A DNA stretch of 64,000 nt from an uncultured Methanobrevibacter sp. (GTDB taxonomy: Archaea > Methanobacteriota > Methanobacteria > Methanobacteriales > Methanobacteriaceae), in the NCBI GenBank assembly GCA_947628455.1, contig CANQZY010000001.1:84613-148612 (forward strand), in the 5' to 3' direction. Position 1 is the first letter of the stretch; every line of letters starts with the position of its first letter. The position numbers were made by a program, and so were the translations under genes. Below, piece by piece: positions 25,321 to 42,981 of this stretch. The notes beneath the pieces are model-generated. The model was given only the letters and a program-made list of their open reading frames with translations, did no database searches and was not told the DNA's origin.

Positions 25321-25343
25321 AGAGGTGTGTTTCAACTGAAAAC
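25321..25343 (-). repeat. Origin recognition box 1
   Basis: On the minus strand it reads TTTTCAGTTGAAACACACC followed by TCT. It has the G-rich flank (AGAGGTGTG on the plus strand) and shares AGTGAGAGG with the inverted box 4. Confidence 0.8.
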
Positions 25344-25367
25344 TTTTTGAGACTATTGAAAGACACA

Positions 25368-25390
25368 AGAGGTATATTTCAACTGTAAAA
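25368..25390 (-). repeat. Origin recognition box 2
   Basis: On the minus strand it reads TTTTACAGTTGAAATATACC followed by TCT. It lies 47 bp from box 1 in the same orientation and has the same AGAGGT flank. Confidence 0.8.
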
Positions 25391-25410
25391 AATACAGTGA
25401 AATTATTCTA

Positions 25411-25430
25411 TTTTTTCACTTGAAATACAT
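25411..25430 (+). repeat. Origin recognition box 3
   Basis: It reads TTTTTTCACTTGAAATACAT on the plus strand, inverted relative to boxes 1 and 2, with ATGTCTTG as right flank. A close relative lies at 35714-35738. Confidence 0.75.
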
Positions 25431-25751: not shown

Positions 25752-26903
25752 ATGGGAAATATTTTTGATAATCTAGAACAACAAAAATCAATTTTTAAAA
25801 ACAAAAAACCTTTAGATCATAGATTTTTACCTGATAATTTACCACATAGAAAAGAACAAATCACTCAAATAGCTCAATATTGGATTGAAGCATTAAATAA
25901 TGTAACTCCTTCAGATGTTACTATTTATGGAAAAACAGGTACAGGTAAAACAGCAGCTGTAAAATTTGCAAAAGAACAATTAGAAGAAGCTAGCGCTAAT
26001 AAAAATGTTTTTGTTAAAGTAGAATATATTCGCTGTACTGATTATACAACAGAATATCAAGTAATAGCACAATTATGCCAACTACTTGGAAGAAACGTTC
26101 CACAACGTGGATGGACTAAAGGTGAAGTAGTAAACGCATTTAGAGATATTTTTAAAACCAATGCTTTTGGTAAAAAACTTATTTTAATTGTTATTTTAGA
26201 TGAAATTGATATTTTATTAGAAAAAGATGGTGATGGGATATTATATACACTTACACGGACAGATAATGTTTCTATTTTATCTATAAGTAATTATGTTGAT
26301 TTTAAAAAATTTATAAAACCTCGTGTTATGAGTAGTTTAAGAGATAAAGAAATTGTATTTCCACCATATGGAGCAGATCAATTAGCAGATATTTTAAAAG
26401 AAAGAGCAGCACTATCTTTTTATGATGATGTTCTTGATGATGATGTTATACCTTTATGTTCAGCAATGGCTGCTAAAGAAGAAGGAGATGCAAGATATGC
26501 TTTGGATTTACTTAGAACAGCAGGTGAAATAGCTGATGATGAAGATTCAGATAAAATTTATGGAAAATATGTTAGGCAAGCTAAAGATAGAATAGAACAC
26601 AATAAAGTAACAGACATTATTTTAACACTCCCAACCCAACAACAAAGAGTTCTTGAAGCTATTTTAAAATTAACACAAGATGGAGAAGAAATTACTTCAG
26701 GAAAATTATATGACACATATAAAGAAGTTTCAAAAGGAGATAGTGTAACATATAGAAGAATTTTTGATTTTATAAATGAATTAGAAATGTTAGGAATTAT
26801 TTCAACTAATACTATATCTCGTGGTCGTGGAAAAGGAAGAACAAATATTATCACACTTCAATGTGGAACAGACCTTTTAGAATCCACTTTATATTTTGCA
26901 TAA
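25752..26903 (+). CDS. cdc6: Origin-binding initiator Orc1/Cdc6
   Basis: This AAA+ protein recognises origin boxes and recruits the MCM helicase. The 383 residues include the Orc1-specific N-terminal segment ([17 protein letters not shown]), Walker A GKTGTGKT (about residues 60-67), Walker [10 protein letters not shown] (about 150), sensor 1 in SISNYVDF, sensor 2 near [13 protein letters not shown] (about 240) and a C-terminal winged helix (about 290-383). It starts with ATG after TTGGTGATAAT. It lies immediately right of the origin boxes it is expected to bind, which could also give autoregulation. Confidence 0.96.
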
Positions 26904-40050: not shown

Positions 40051-41163
40051 ATGTCTCTTTTAAAAACAATACAAATTTTAACAGATTCAGCACAATATGA
40101 TTTATGTGATTATGTAAATTCTAATAAACAATCTTCTATAAATTTACCTGGAATTTATCAAGCAACATCTAATGGTTGTAAAGTTCCTATTTTTAAAACA
40201 CTCATGTCAAATAAATGTAAAAATGATTGTAAATATTGCATAAATCAATCTAAAAGAAATTTTCAGAGACTTCAGCTAACTCCTGAATATTTATCTAAGA
40301 TTTTTATAGATTATTATAATAGAGGACATGTTTTTGGTTTATTTTTGAGTTCAGGAATATCTGATGATCCTGATGAAACAATGGAGAATATAATTGAAAC
40401 AGCATATATTCTACGTAAAAAATATAGCTATAAAGATTATATTCATTTAAAAATAATTCCTGGAGCAAATAAAGATTCGATTAAACGTGCTATGGCTCTT
40501 TCAAATAGAGTAAGTATTAATATTGAAGCAGCTACTGCGGATGGTCTTTCAACAATATCTTCAACAAAAGATTATAACAATGATATTTTAAAACGATTAA
40601 GATGGATAAATTCTTTAAGAAATTCAAAAGATGTTTTTCCTAGATCTACATACACAACACAATTAATTGTTGGAGCTAATGATGAAACAGATAAAGAAAT
40701 CTTAACTAGGATGAGTAAAATTTATAAAAAATTTAAACTTAAAAGAACATATTTTTCACCATTTTTTCCGGTTGAAGGTACAGAATTTGAAAATAAAAAA
40801 GCTTGCAGTGAATATAGAACAAATGCTCTATATAATGCGGATAAATTAATTAATAGTTATGGATATAATGTTAAAGAACTTGTTTTTAATGATAATGATC
40901 AATTATATTTAAATGAAGATCCGAAGATTTTAGCAGCTGAAAGAATGGATATCTTTCCTGTTGAAATTAATCAAGCTCCATATTATGATTTAATAAGAGT
41001 TCCAGGAATAGGAACTAGAAGTGCACATAAAATAATATCTTTTCGCCATAAAAATCCATTTTCTTCTTATCATCAACTAAAAGAAATTGGAGTAGTGGTT
41101 AATAGAGCCGAAAAATATATCACAATCAATGGAGAAATTCAATCTAATTTAGATTTTTTTTAA
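40051..41163 (+). CDS. Radical SAM protein, putative DNA modification/repair type
   Basis: A 370-residue protein matching the family of putative DNA modification/repair radical SAM proteins. It has KCKNDCKYCINQ (the CxxxCxxC cluster motif, about residues 56-63), HLKIIPGA, the SINIEAATADGL segment and TTQLIVGANDETD. The C-terminus has a helix-hairpin-helix DNA-binding motif (IRVPGIGTRSAHKIISFR). The family is usually paired with a DUF4130-type uracil-DNA-glycosylase-like partner; none is adjacent here. Its stop overlaps the end of the convergent ParA-partner gene by 4 bp. The substrate is unknown. Confidence 0.82.
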   Translation: MSLLKTIQILTDSAQYDLCDYVNSNKQSSINLPGIYQATSNGCKVPIFKTLMSNKCKNDCKYCINQSKRNFQRLQLTPEYLSKIFIDYYNRGHVFGLFLSSGISDDPDETMENIIETAYILRKKYSYKDYIHLKIIPGANKDSIKRAMALSNRVSINIEAATADGLSTISSTKDYNNDILKRLRWINSLRNSKDVFPRSTYTTQLIVGANDETDKEILTRMSKIYKKFKLKRTYFSPFFPVEGTEFENKKACSEYRTNALYNADKLINSYGYNVKELVFNDNDQLYLNEDPKILAAERMDIFPVEINQAPYYDLIRVPGIGTRSAHKIISFRHKNPFSSYHQLKEIGVVVNRAEKYITINGEIQSNLDFF

Positions 41164-41825
41164 ATTTCTTTAAATAATTTCCAGATTTCAGGATATTTTT
41201 TACTCACGGCTTCATCAATTAAAACAGCCCCTTCTTTACTAATACTGAATTCAGGTTCGGTTTTTCGTAAGTATCTAAATACTGCTGCTGAATGTGAGGA
41301 CCAAAGTGTAATTCTTGGATTTTTATTAACAATTTCTTTAACTTCTTTTATGTTTTTAATTTCTTTTTCAGTTAAAGTTTTATTAATTTCTTTTTCTGTT
41401 TTAGCAACATCTTCAGATTTTTCTTTATTTATTTTTTTCTCTTCTATTTTAATATTTTTTTCAACACCTATTTCTTTTTCAACAGTATCAAAGTTTTCAT
41501 CAAAAAATTCTCCAGGAACTTCTTTATTTTTTTCTCTTCTAATTGTTTCTTTTTCAGTATATTTTTTATCAATTTCAGTTTTTATTTCATTATCAGATGG
41601 CGGTTTTTTTTTATTTAATTTTAAATTTTTTTCTTTTAGATTCTTTTTATCTTCCGATACTGGATTTACTTCAGTAACATCATTTTCTTTAATATTTTTT
41701 TCTTGATCTTCATTTAACATCTCTTCTAATGAAATTGAATTATTACTATCAAATTCTTCATTATAAAAATCTGGAATTAATGAATCAAGACCTTTTCCTA
41801 GTCCACTTTGTCTTTTTTTGGCCAT
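41160..41825 (-). CDS. ParA partner with a ParB-like N-terminal peptide but no ParB core
   Basis: A 221-residue protein, 7 bp downstream of parA. The N-terminus MAKKRQSGLGKGLDSLIPD closely matches the ParA-contacting tail of bacterial ParB (typically KKRGLGKGLDALI). The rest does not look like ParB: there is no GERR phosphate motif and no helix-turn-helix. Residues 30-155 are a highly charged, probably disordered Lys/Glu linker. A compact C-terminal domain (about 160-221; NPRITLWSSHSAAVFRYLRK, FSISKEGAVLIDEAVSKKYP) follows. Its RxL helix then (V/I)S loop then long helix loosely resembles half of a histone fold; that is speculation. Likely a DNA- or chromosome-linked partner of ParA. Confidence 0.7.
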   Translation of the reverse strand: MAKKRQSGLGKGLDSLIPDFYNEEFDSNNSISLEEMLNEDQEKNIKENDVTEVNPVSEDKKNLKEKNLKLNKKKPPSDNEIKTEIDKKYTEKETIRREKNKEVPGEFFDENFDTVEKEIGVEKNIKIEEKKINKEKSEDVAKTEKEINKTLTEKEIKNIKEVKEIVNKNPRITLWSSHSAAVFRYLRKTEPEFSISKEGAVLIDEAVSKKYPEIWKLFKEI

Positions 41826-41832
41826 TATATCC

Positions 41833-42612
41833 CTACTTCTTCTTTTTGTCTCTACTTATAATTTCTTCAGCTAATTTTAAATAAGCTTTTGTCCCTTTAC
41901 TTTTAGGATCATAAATTAAGCAGGGTTTTCCTCTACTAGGAGCTTCTGCTAATCTAATGTTTCTAGGTATTACTGTTTTTAGTAATAAATCATTTTCAGA
42001 AAAATAATTTTTAAGTTCTTGATGCACATCTTTACTTAGATTAGTTCTTCTATCATAAAGAGTTAATAAAATACCTTTTATTGGTGTTGGACTTCTTAAA
42101 CGTTTTTCAACTAATCTTATTGTATTTATTAAATCAGCCACACCTTCTAATGCATAATATTCTGCTTGTATTGGTATCAATACACTATCTGAAGCTATTA
42201 ATGCATTTACTGTTAGAACACCTAATGAAGGAGGTAGATCTATAAATACATAATCGAACAATGAAATAACTTCTTTTAATGCTTCTTTTAAAACAATGTG
42301 ATAATATTCTTTTTTTGTTAATTCCATTGTAGCATCACTTAATACTATATTGCTAGGAATTATGAATAAATTCTTAATAAAAGTAGAAATTGTTGCTTTT
42401 TTCACGTTTATATTTCCAATTAAAACATCATAAATTGTATTTTCTAATTCTGTTTTATCAATTCCAAAACTTGTTGTTGTATTTGCTTGCGGGTCCATAT
42501 CGACAACAAGTACAGTTTTTCCCATTACAGCTAATGATGTAGCAGTATTTACAACTGTTGTTGTTTTTCCGCAACCTCCTTTTTGATTCATTACAGCAAT
42601 TACTTCACCCAT
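41833..42612 (-). CDS. parA: ParA/Soj-type chromosome partitioning ATPase
   Basis: A 259-residue Walker-type ATPase of the ParA/Soj family. It has the deviant Walker A MNQKGGCGKTTT with the signature lysine (about residues 9-20), VVDMDPQANTT (switch I), FIDLPPSLGVLTVNAL (Walker B) and IPRNIRLAEAPSRGKP near residue 220. The size and lack of an N-terminal HTH put it with chromosomal ParA. It is the first gene of a two-gene operon with the ParB-like-tail protein. A dense array of TAACTT hexamers lies upstream. It has a GGGGAT-type ribosome binding site. Confidence 0.93.
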   Translation of the reverse strand: MGEVIAVMNQKGGCGKTTTVVNTATSLAVMGKTVLVVDMDPQANTTTSFGIDKTELENTIYDVLIGNINVKKATISTFIKNLFIIPSNIVLSDATMELTKKEYYHIVLKEALKEVISLFDYVFIDLPPSLGVLTVNALIASDSVLIPIQAEYYALEGVADLINTIRLVEKRLRSPTPIKGILLTLYDRRTNLSKDVHQELKNYFSENDLLLKTVIPRNIRLAEAPSRGKPCLIYDPKSKGTKAYLKLAEEIISRDKKKK

Positions 42613-42647
42613 TTTTTATCCCCATTATATATAATACTTCTAATTTT

Positions 42648-42851
42648 TAACTTATTAGAATTAAGTTATAATATATATGTTATTATTTTTAATAGATAAC
42701 TTAGAATTTTTAACTTTTAAGATTTAACATTTAAGTTATTTTTTATAACTTTTTACATATAAGTTTTCACTTTTAATGTATAACTTAAATCTTATAACTT
42801 TTTATTTTTAATATTTAACTTATCTATTATAACTAATAAGTTATAACTTAT
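42648..42851. repeat. TAACTT/AAGTTA hexamer array upstream of parA
   Basis: Eleven copies of TAACTT or its complement AAGTTA occur in about 200 bp, starting at 42648, 42663, 42697, 42711, 42733, 42746, 42781, 42795, 42816, 42838 and 42844. Two form inverted pairs: TAACTTA/TAAGTTA with a 7-bp spacer (42648-42668), and a perfect 16-bp palindrome ATAAGTTATAACTTAT (42836-42851). Spacing is irregular (about 13-36 bp), with some 14-bp intervals. The array fills the 369-bp gap between parA and the divergent DUF1786 gene. It looks like a centromere (parS-like) site or a cooperative operator. The function is inference. Confidence 0.65.
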
Positions 42852-42981
42852 AATAAAAAAATAATTATTATAATTTATAAATTCATTAAATAGTATAAAA
42901 TTAAATGTAATCTAGTAATAATTATATTTACAAATATCTAAAACATTAAATATATTAATAAAAAAAGAAACTATTTAATAC

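Follow-up and report, generated by a model that had tools for sequence, protein, structure and literature searches.

In Sulfolobus and Saccharolobus, the SegAB system consists of a ParA-type ATPase, SegA, followed downstream by SegB, with sites just upstream of segA. The SegB motif obtained by ChIP in Sulfolobus is TCTAGA-S-TCTAGA, and ~40-50 of these 13-bp sites are dispersed, mostly within genes (PMC12284271). SegB is an RHH-domain protein whose left-handed superhelix on DNA resembles that of omega, the centromere protein of plasmid pSM19035 (review, PMC9178275). Each WATCACW heptad is bound by one omega dimer, and ParA activation requires four or more contiguous heptads (PMC9499535). Bacterial ParABS systems have an HTH/CTPase ParB and a 16-bp parS site. 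The presence of SegAB in Euryarchaea has already been noted (PMC5120986). Which sites does SegB recognize there? A 2025 ChIP study of SegB could not point to a convincing site in the vicinity of segAB in Thermococcus sibiricus, and other sequences were expected (PMC12284271).

We analyzed a 64-kb stretch (hereafter, the window) of a metagenome-assembled Methanobrevibacter genome. A sequence-only reading had drawn attention to a dense cluster of hexamers filling the divergent spacer between a parA gene and a DUF1786 gene, and had suggested an operator, a centromere, or both. The features of the window that concern us are the following (window coordinates):

41160..41825, minus strand: segB, 221 aa; profile and fold match to Sulfolobus SegB
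41163..41345, minus strand: C-terminal SegB domain, residues ~161-221, with a PRITLWS segment and helices; query for the profile, fold and structure searches
41833..42612, minus strand: segA, ParA-type Walker ATPase (AAA_31), 259 aa; AAA_31 E=1.4e-62, NQKGGCGKTTT motif
42645..42854, no strand: heptad array, 30 units of 7 bp without gaps on a single lattice; consensus TTATAAS with S = C or G, from phase, autocorrelation and lattice score; proposed, from sequence, as a candidate SegB-binding centromere overlapping the segA promoter region
42836..42851, no strand: 16-bp perfect palindrome ATAAGTTATAACTTAT, formed by adjacent heptads with opposite S bases
25791..26858 (G000:C1:110403-111470), plus strand: orc1/cdc6-1, replication origin marker, ~15.8 kb from the array; TIGR02928 E=5.9e-120
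25321..25425, no strand: origin-recognition-box (ORB)-like repeats TTTTCAGTTGAAA, TTTACAGTTGAAA and TTTTCACTTGAAA next to cdc6; motif different from the heptads

The segAB gene pair

The gene called parA in the sequence-only reading does encode a ParA-type protein, while its partner, left unnamed there, is of the SegB type. Given the profile and fold matches to SegB, the gene pair is segAB: the window parA is segA, and the next gene downstream, separated from it by 7 nt, is segB. Orthologues of segA from Methanobrevibacter are 80-85% identical to it; for those from the order's other families the figure is 58-62%. Members of the SegB family have GLGKGL at the N-terminus, then a charged linker whose length varies, and a C-terminal domain of 61 aa that is strongly conserved; the N-terminal GLGKGLDSLIPD motif resembles the start of ParB proteins. 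The linker is highly charged throughout, and its length ranges from near zero to ~200 aa across species.

Searches of Pfam and NCBIfam yielded no family match for the 221-aa protein, and no Pfam ParB CTPase/HTH domain was found in it; the identification as SegB comes from the PDB profile and fold searches only. The profile of the C-terminal domain matched the Sulfolobus SegB entries 7dv2 (E=9.6e-10) and 7duv (E=1.7e-9), and no other PDB entry significantly. At E values up to 10, this search returned weak histone matches besides SegB and no omega entry, and gave no sign of homology between the proposed binding protein and omega. In the structure search, the AF2 model matched the SegB-DNA complex 7dv2 best (prob 0.99, TM 0.72, E 0.3), a specific match though its Foldseek E-value is weak. 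Model confidence is modest over the first 20 residues (pLDDT 63-72), and the beta strand is unassigned in this monomer model. Of the 152 genomes sampled from the phylum, 136 encode the SegB domain, and all 20 genera in the sample are represented; in the loci examined, the SegB gene lies just downstream of segA.

The order of the genes and the homologous SegB C-terminal domain are shared with Sulfolobus and Saccharolobus SegAB, as is the position of the sites just upstream of segA. With the delta/omega ParABS system of pSM19035 the locus shares an RHH centromere protein and, upstream of the genes for ParA and ParB, uninterrupted 7-bp repeats that occur in both orientations; delta/omega differs in being plasmid-borne and bacterial, and its heptads are non-palindromic and of a different sequence. 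Likeness to bacterial ParABS extends to ParA homology (~50% identity), origin-proximal sites and a GLGKGL-type N-terminus on the ParB partner, but not to the HTH/CTPase ParB or to parS; a bacterial parS was rejected, as none occurs within 2 mismatches in the window. Another contig of the same MAG (L132, G000:C16:1-4500) encodes a bacterial-type ParA with a canonical 295-aa ParB and is probably a bacterial contaminant.

A 7-bp lattice upstream of segA

The spacer holds exactly the eleven TAACTT/AAGTTA copies that had been counted in it, 8 on the plus strand and 3 on the minus strand, at 42648-42849. Dinucleotide-preserving shuffles of the spacer (n=1000) contain a mean of 1.7 copies and a maximum of 7. 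It had been conceded that comparable densities in other AT-rich spacers would undo the case; we looked for them in 392 kb of the same genome and found at most 3 copies per 204-bp stretch, so within that sample the spacer stands alone. Over the entire window TAACTT is not over-represented (71 observed versus 90 expected), and since it is nevertheless dense in the spacer, the signal is one of local density.

The repeat unit is a heptad. All 12 WTAASTT words lie in a single 7-bp phase, with every pairwise distance up to 70 bp a multiple of 7; the chance of a common phase for 12 words is ~7^-11. The only autocorrelation peaks in the spacer are those at lags 7, 14 and 21. A lattice profile trained solely on other genomes gives the array 129.8 bits, with an optimal scoring segment at 42636-42883, compared with 21.9 bits for the best score outside the array (392 kb, same genome) and 15-22 bits in shuffled 64-kb windows. 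The lattice scan covered 392 kb of the 1.47-Mb MAG and was accompanied by whole-genome pattern searches. The array is imperfect, many heptads having 2-3 mismatches.

TTATAAS is a pseudo-palindrome centred on S (TTATAA-S-TTATAA), and because S may be either C or G, the embedded hexamers appear now direct, now inverted. The perfect 16-bp palindrome described earlier is indeed present, and it exists because neighboring heptads of the lattice carry opposite S bases. Inverted hexamer pairs did not survive as the unit of the array; hexamers and inverted pairs alike are by-products of the 7-bp tandem lattice. A variant heptad, TTTTCAC/TTATCAC, recurs, often at the ends of arrays (42764-42770 in the window, and many of the satellite arrays described below). 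The word TATCACT fits the omega heptad WATCACW, perhaps by coincidence.

How does this lattice compare with the described sites? The Sulfolobus motif can be read as two 7-bp units in the same layout, and the layout as published (TCTAGASTCTAGA) is present here: pseudo-palindromic, S-centred, 7-bp-spaced sites upstream of segA. The heptad sequence differs from that of the Sulfolobus site. The TCTAGASTCTAGA consensus, a species-level rather than a family-defining feature, was rejected as the motif of the array, its one 2-mismatch match in 64 kb being at chance level and far from the array. Whereas the Sulfolobus sites are dispersed, we find here either one long unbroken array or a handful of short ones, mostly between genes and close to segAB or the origin. 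As the layout is shared, the 7-bp SegB unit may be general across SegB proteins. Against the omega minimum of at least four contiguous heptads near the parA promoter, the window has 30, and the smallest satellites, with 4 heptads, match that minimum.

Conservation, satellite arrays and the replication origin

It had been suggested that the homologous region be compared in related species, and the comparison finds the same lattice beside segA across the genus and in most other Methanobacteriales examined. Essentially all Methanobrevibacter loci with a long enough upstream region have it (~30-90 heptads), as do related genera of the same family; two further families of the order have ~7-12 heptads upstream of segA. 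Arrays are short and degenerate in genomes that we take to be of the Methanosphaera type. Among the Methanobacteriales genomes examined nearly all carry the TTATAAS lattice upstream of segA, G049 being the exception, and in nearly all the array covers the segA promoter region directly 5' of the start codon. Bacterial ParA relatives whose partner is a canonical ParB have no lattice upstream, and none that convinces was found at the Thermococcales-labelled locus L111.

The proposal that the array is an operator shared with DUF1786 is rejected, because the neighbor on that side changes between species: a trpB-like gene intervenes between the array and DUF1786 in other Methanobrevibacter, and other genes lie there elsewhere. 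DUF1786 is an incidental neighbor of the array.

Some observations on individual records belong here. L053, from a record titled Bacilli bacterium isolate RGIG2951, is a Methanobrevibacter segAB contig with an array score equal to that of L056 and is likely mis-binned. In the order of G055, SegB was found in 1 of 30 genomes only. A second par locus, L130 (G055:C6), has a 7-bp periodic, ATCGTAG-like stretch ~15-135 bp upstream of the parA start; next to it is a SegB-like gene that is divergent, and the architecture may be the same one, built from a different heptad.

Relatives carry extra arrays of 4-7 heptads away from segAB, at conserved intergenic positions within one 60-85 kb region. By whole-genome pattern scan, all 5 arrays of G047 (1,751,377 bp) lie at 1286.9, 1294.9, 1318.0, 1337.2 and 1362.1 kb; its cdc6 is located at 1278.2 kb and its segA at 1318 kb. 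The same scan of G043 finds 4 arrays within 69 kb and zero elsewhere. G049, a class-level relative, lacks an array upstream of segA (at 1043 kb) and has six perfect copies at 1073.6-1136.5 kb, i.e., 30-93 kb from segA. If positions were random and shared ancestry is ignored, the chance of such clustering would be ~2e-5 for G047 and ~2e-6 for G049. The f2-family genomes G043 and G047 share the gene borders at which three satellites lie, and a satellite next to acnX (aconitase X) is common to G047, G038 and G042, which represent two families. Extra arrays occur also in G038, G042, G079 and G014, most of them close to segAB or cdc6. Several Methanobrevibacter genomes have few satellites or none, and G033 has none clearly above control. 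Five of the six G049 satellites (L205-L209) sit inside a longer repeated element, a ~40-bp conserved block with the ORB-like word TTTCAAGTGTAA adjoining them; the first three of the six copies run in one direction and the last three in the opposite one.

The ORB-like repeats at 25321-25425, beside cdc6, likely mark the oriC of the genome, and G047 has 11 copies of the same motif beside its cdc6. No clear origin could be read from the GC skew of G049 or G047. In six genomes, 15-25 kb separate the array from orc1/cdc6-1. In G038, segAB is ~300 kb from cdc6 and the heptads stay with segAB.

Centromere or operator?

We consider it highly probable that the array is both the centromere and a promoter-proximal operator of a chromosomal SegAB segregation machine, with SegB tiling the heptads as a filament. 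This reading builds on the lattice with its single phase and its conservation, the link to segAB, the satellites near segAB or the origin, and the homology of SegB. The earlier suggestion of an operator, a centromere or both thus pointed to the right area: the centromere is favored, with autoregulation as a second role, and what falls away is the inverted-hexamer operator as the unit.

The array could be solely an autoregulatory operator, at which SegB or SegA represses segAB with no role in segregation; its place over the segA promoter in nearly all genomes would suit this, as would the frequent autoregulation of RHH partition proteins. We regard this as unlikely, since 30-90 heptads far exceed what an operator needs, and since an operator would account neither for arrays tens of kilobases from segAB at conserved intergenic positions nor for G049, with none upstream of segA and six elsewhere. 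It is the satellites away from segAB, together with G049, that tip the balance toward a centromere.

Could the array instead belong to the replication origin, as Orc1/Cdc6 boxes or an AT-rich unwinding element? It is AT-rich, repeated and not far from cdc6-1, but the repeats directly beside cdc6 are of another sequence, ORB-type TTNCAGTTGAAA repeats do not occur in the array, and the heptads track segAB even where segAB and cdc6 lie far apart, as in G038; origin boxes are rejected, and an origin element of any kind is very improbable. A neutral AT-rich tandem repeat, generated by slippage and bound by no protein, would fit the very AT-rich region and an array length that differs between species. 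We give this reading equally little credence: despite degeneracy at some positions the heptads hold to a single phase; conservation of the lattice extends over families of the order and to orthologous satellite loci, and genomes of moderate GC content show it as well; and neither shuffles nor other spacers produce it.

If the array is a SegAB centromere, how might it work? By analogy with omega of pSM19035 on its WATCACW heptads, SegB dimers would bind pseudo-palindromic TTATAAS units side by side through the RHH-type C-terminal domain; with one dimer per heptad, a continuous nucleoprotein filament would cover ~210 bp. The N-terminal GLGKGL tails displayed along this filament would contact ATP-bound SegA at the nucleoid and boost its ATPase activity, so that sister origin regions move apart, and SegB occupancy of the array would also repress segAB. 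From these parallels we infer that SegB binds the array, places one dimer on each heptad, forms a filament, stimulates the ATPase and represses segAB.

A broader reading strikes us as evenly balanced between right and wrong. SegB throughout the archaea would read DNA in 7-bp steps, and the heptads would co-evolve with it: TTATAAS in Methanobacteriales, TCTAGAS in Sulfolobales and others, such as ATCGTAG or GATAAGT, beside SegB-like genes in G055. Within Methanobacteriales, the centromere would have passed from several short arrays, scattered about the origin and segAB, to one long array at segAB with as many as ~90 units.

SegAB itself was already known; what appears to be new, from sequence analysis, is a candidate chromosomal centromere in the form of a heptad lattice. 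In the openly licensed literature, where only reviews came up, we found no earlier description of a euryarchaeal heptad site, and one may exist elsewhere. For Methanobacteriales, gut Methanobrevibacter included, the lattice provides a concrete, testable answer to the question of the euryarchaeal SegB site. It would connect the SegB sites of archaea with the heptad scheme by which RHH proteins partition plasmids, and it gives methanogen work a candidate centromere that could serve in cell-biology tagging or in stabilizing plasmids.
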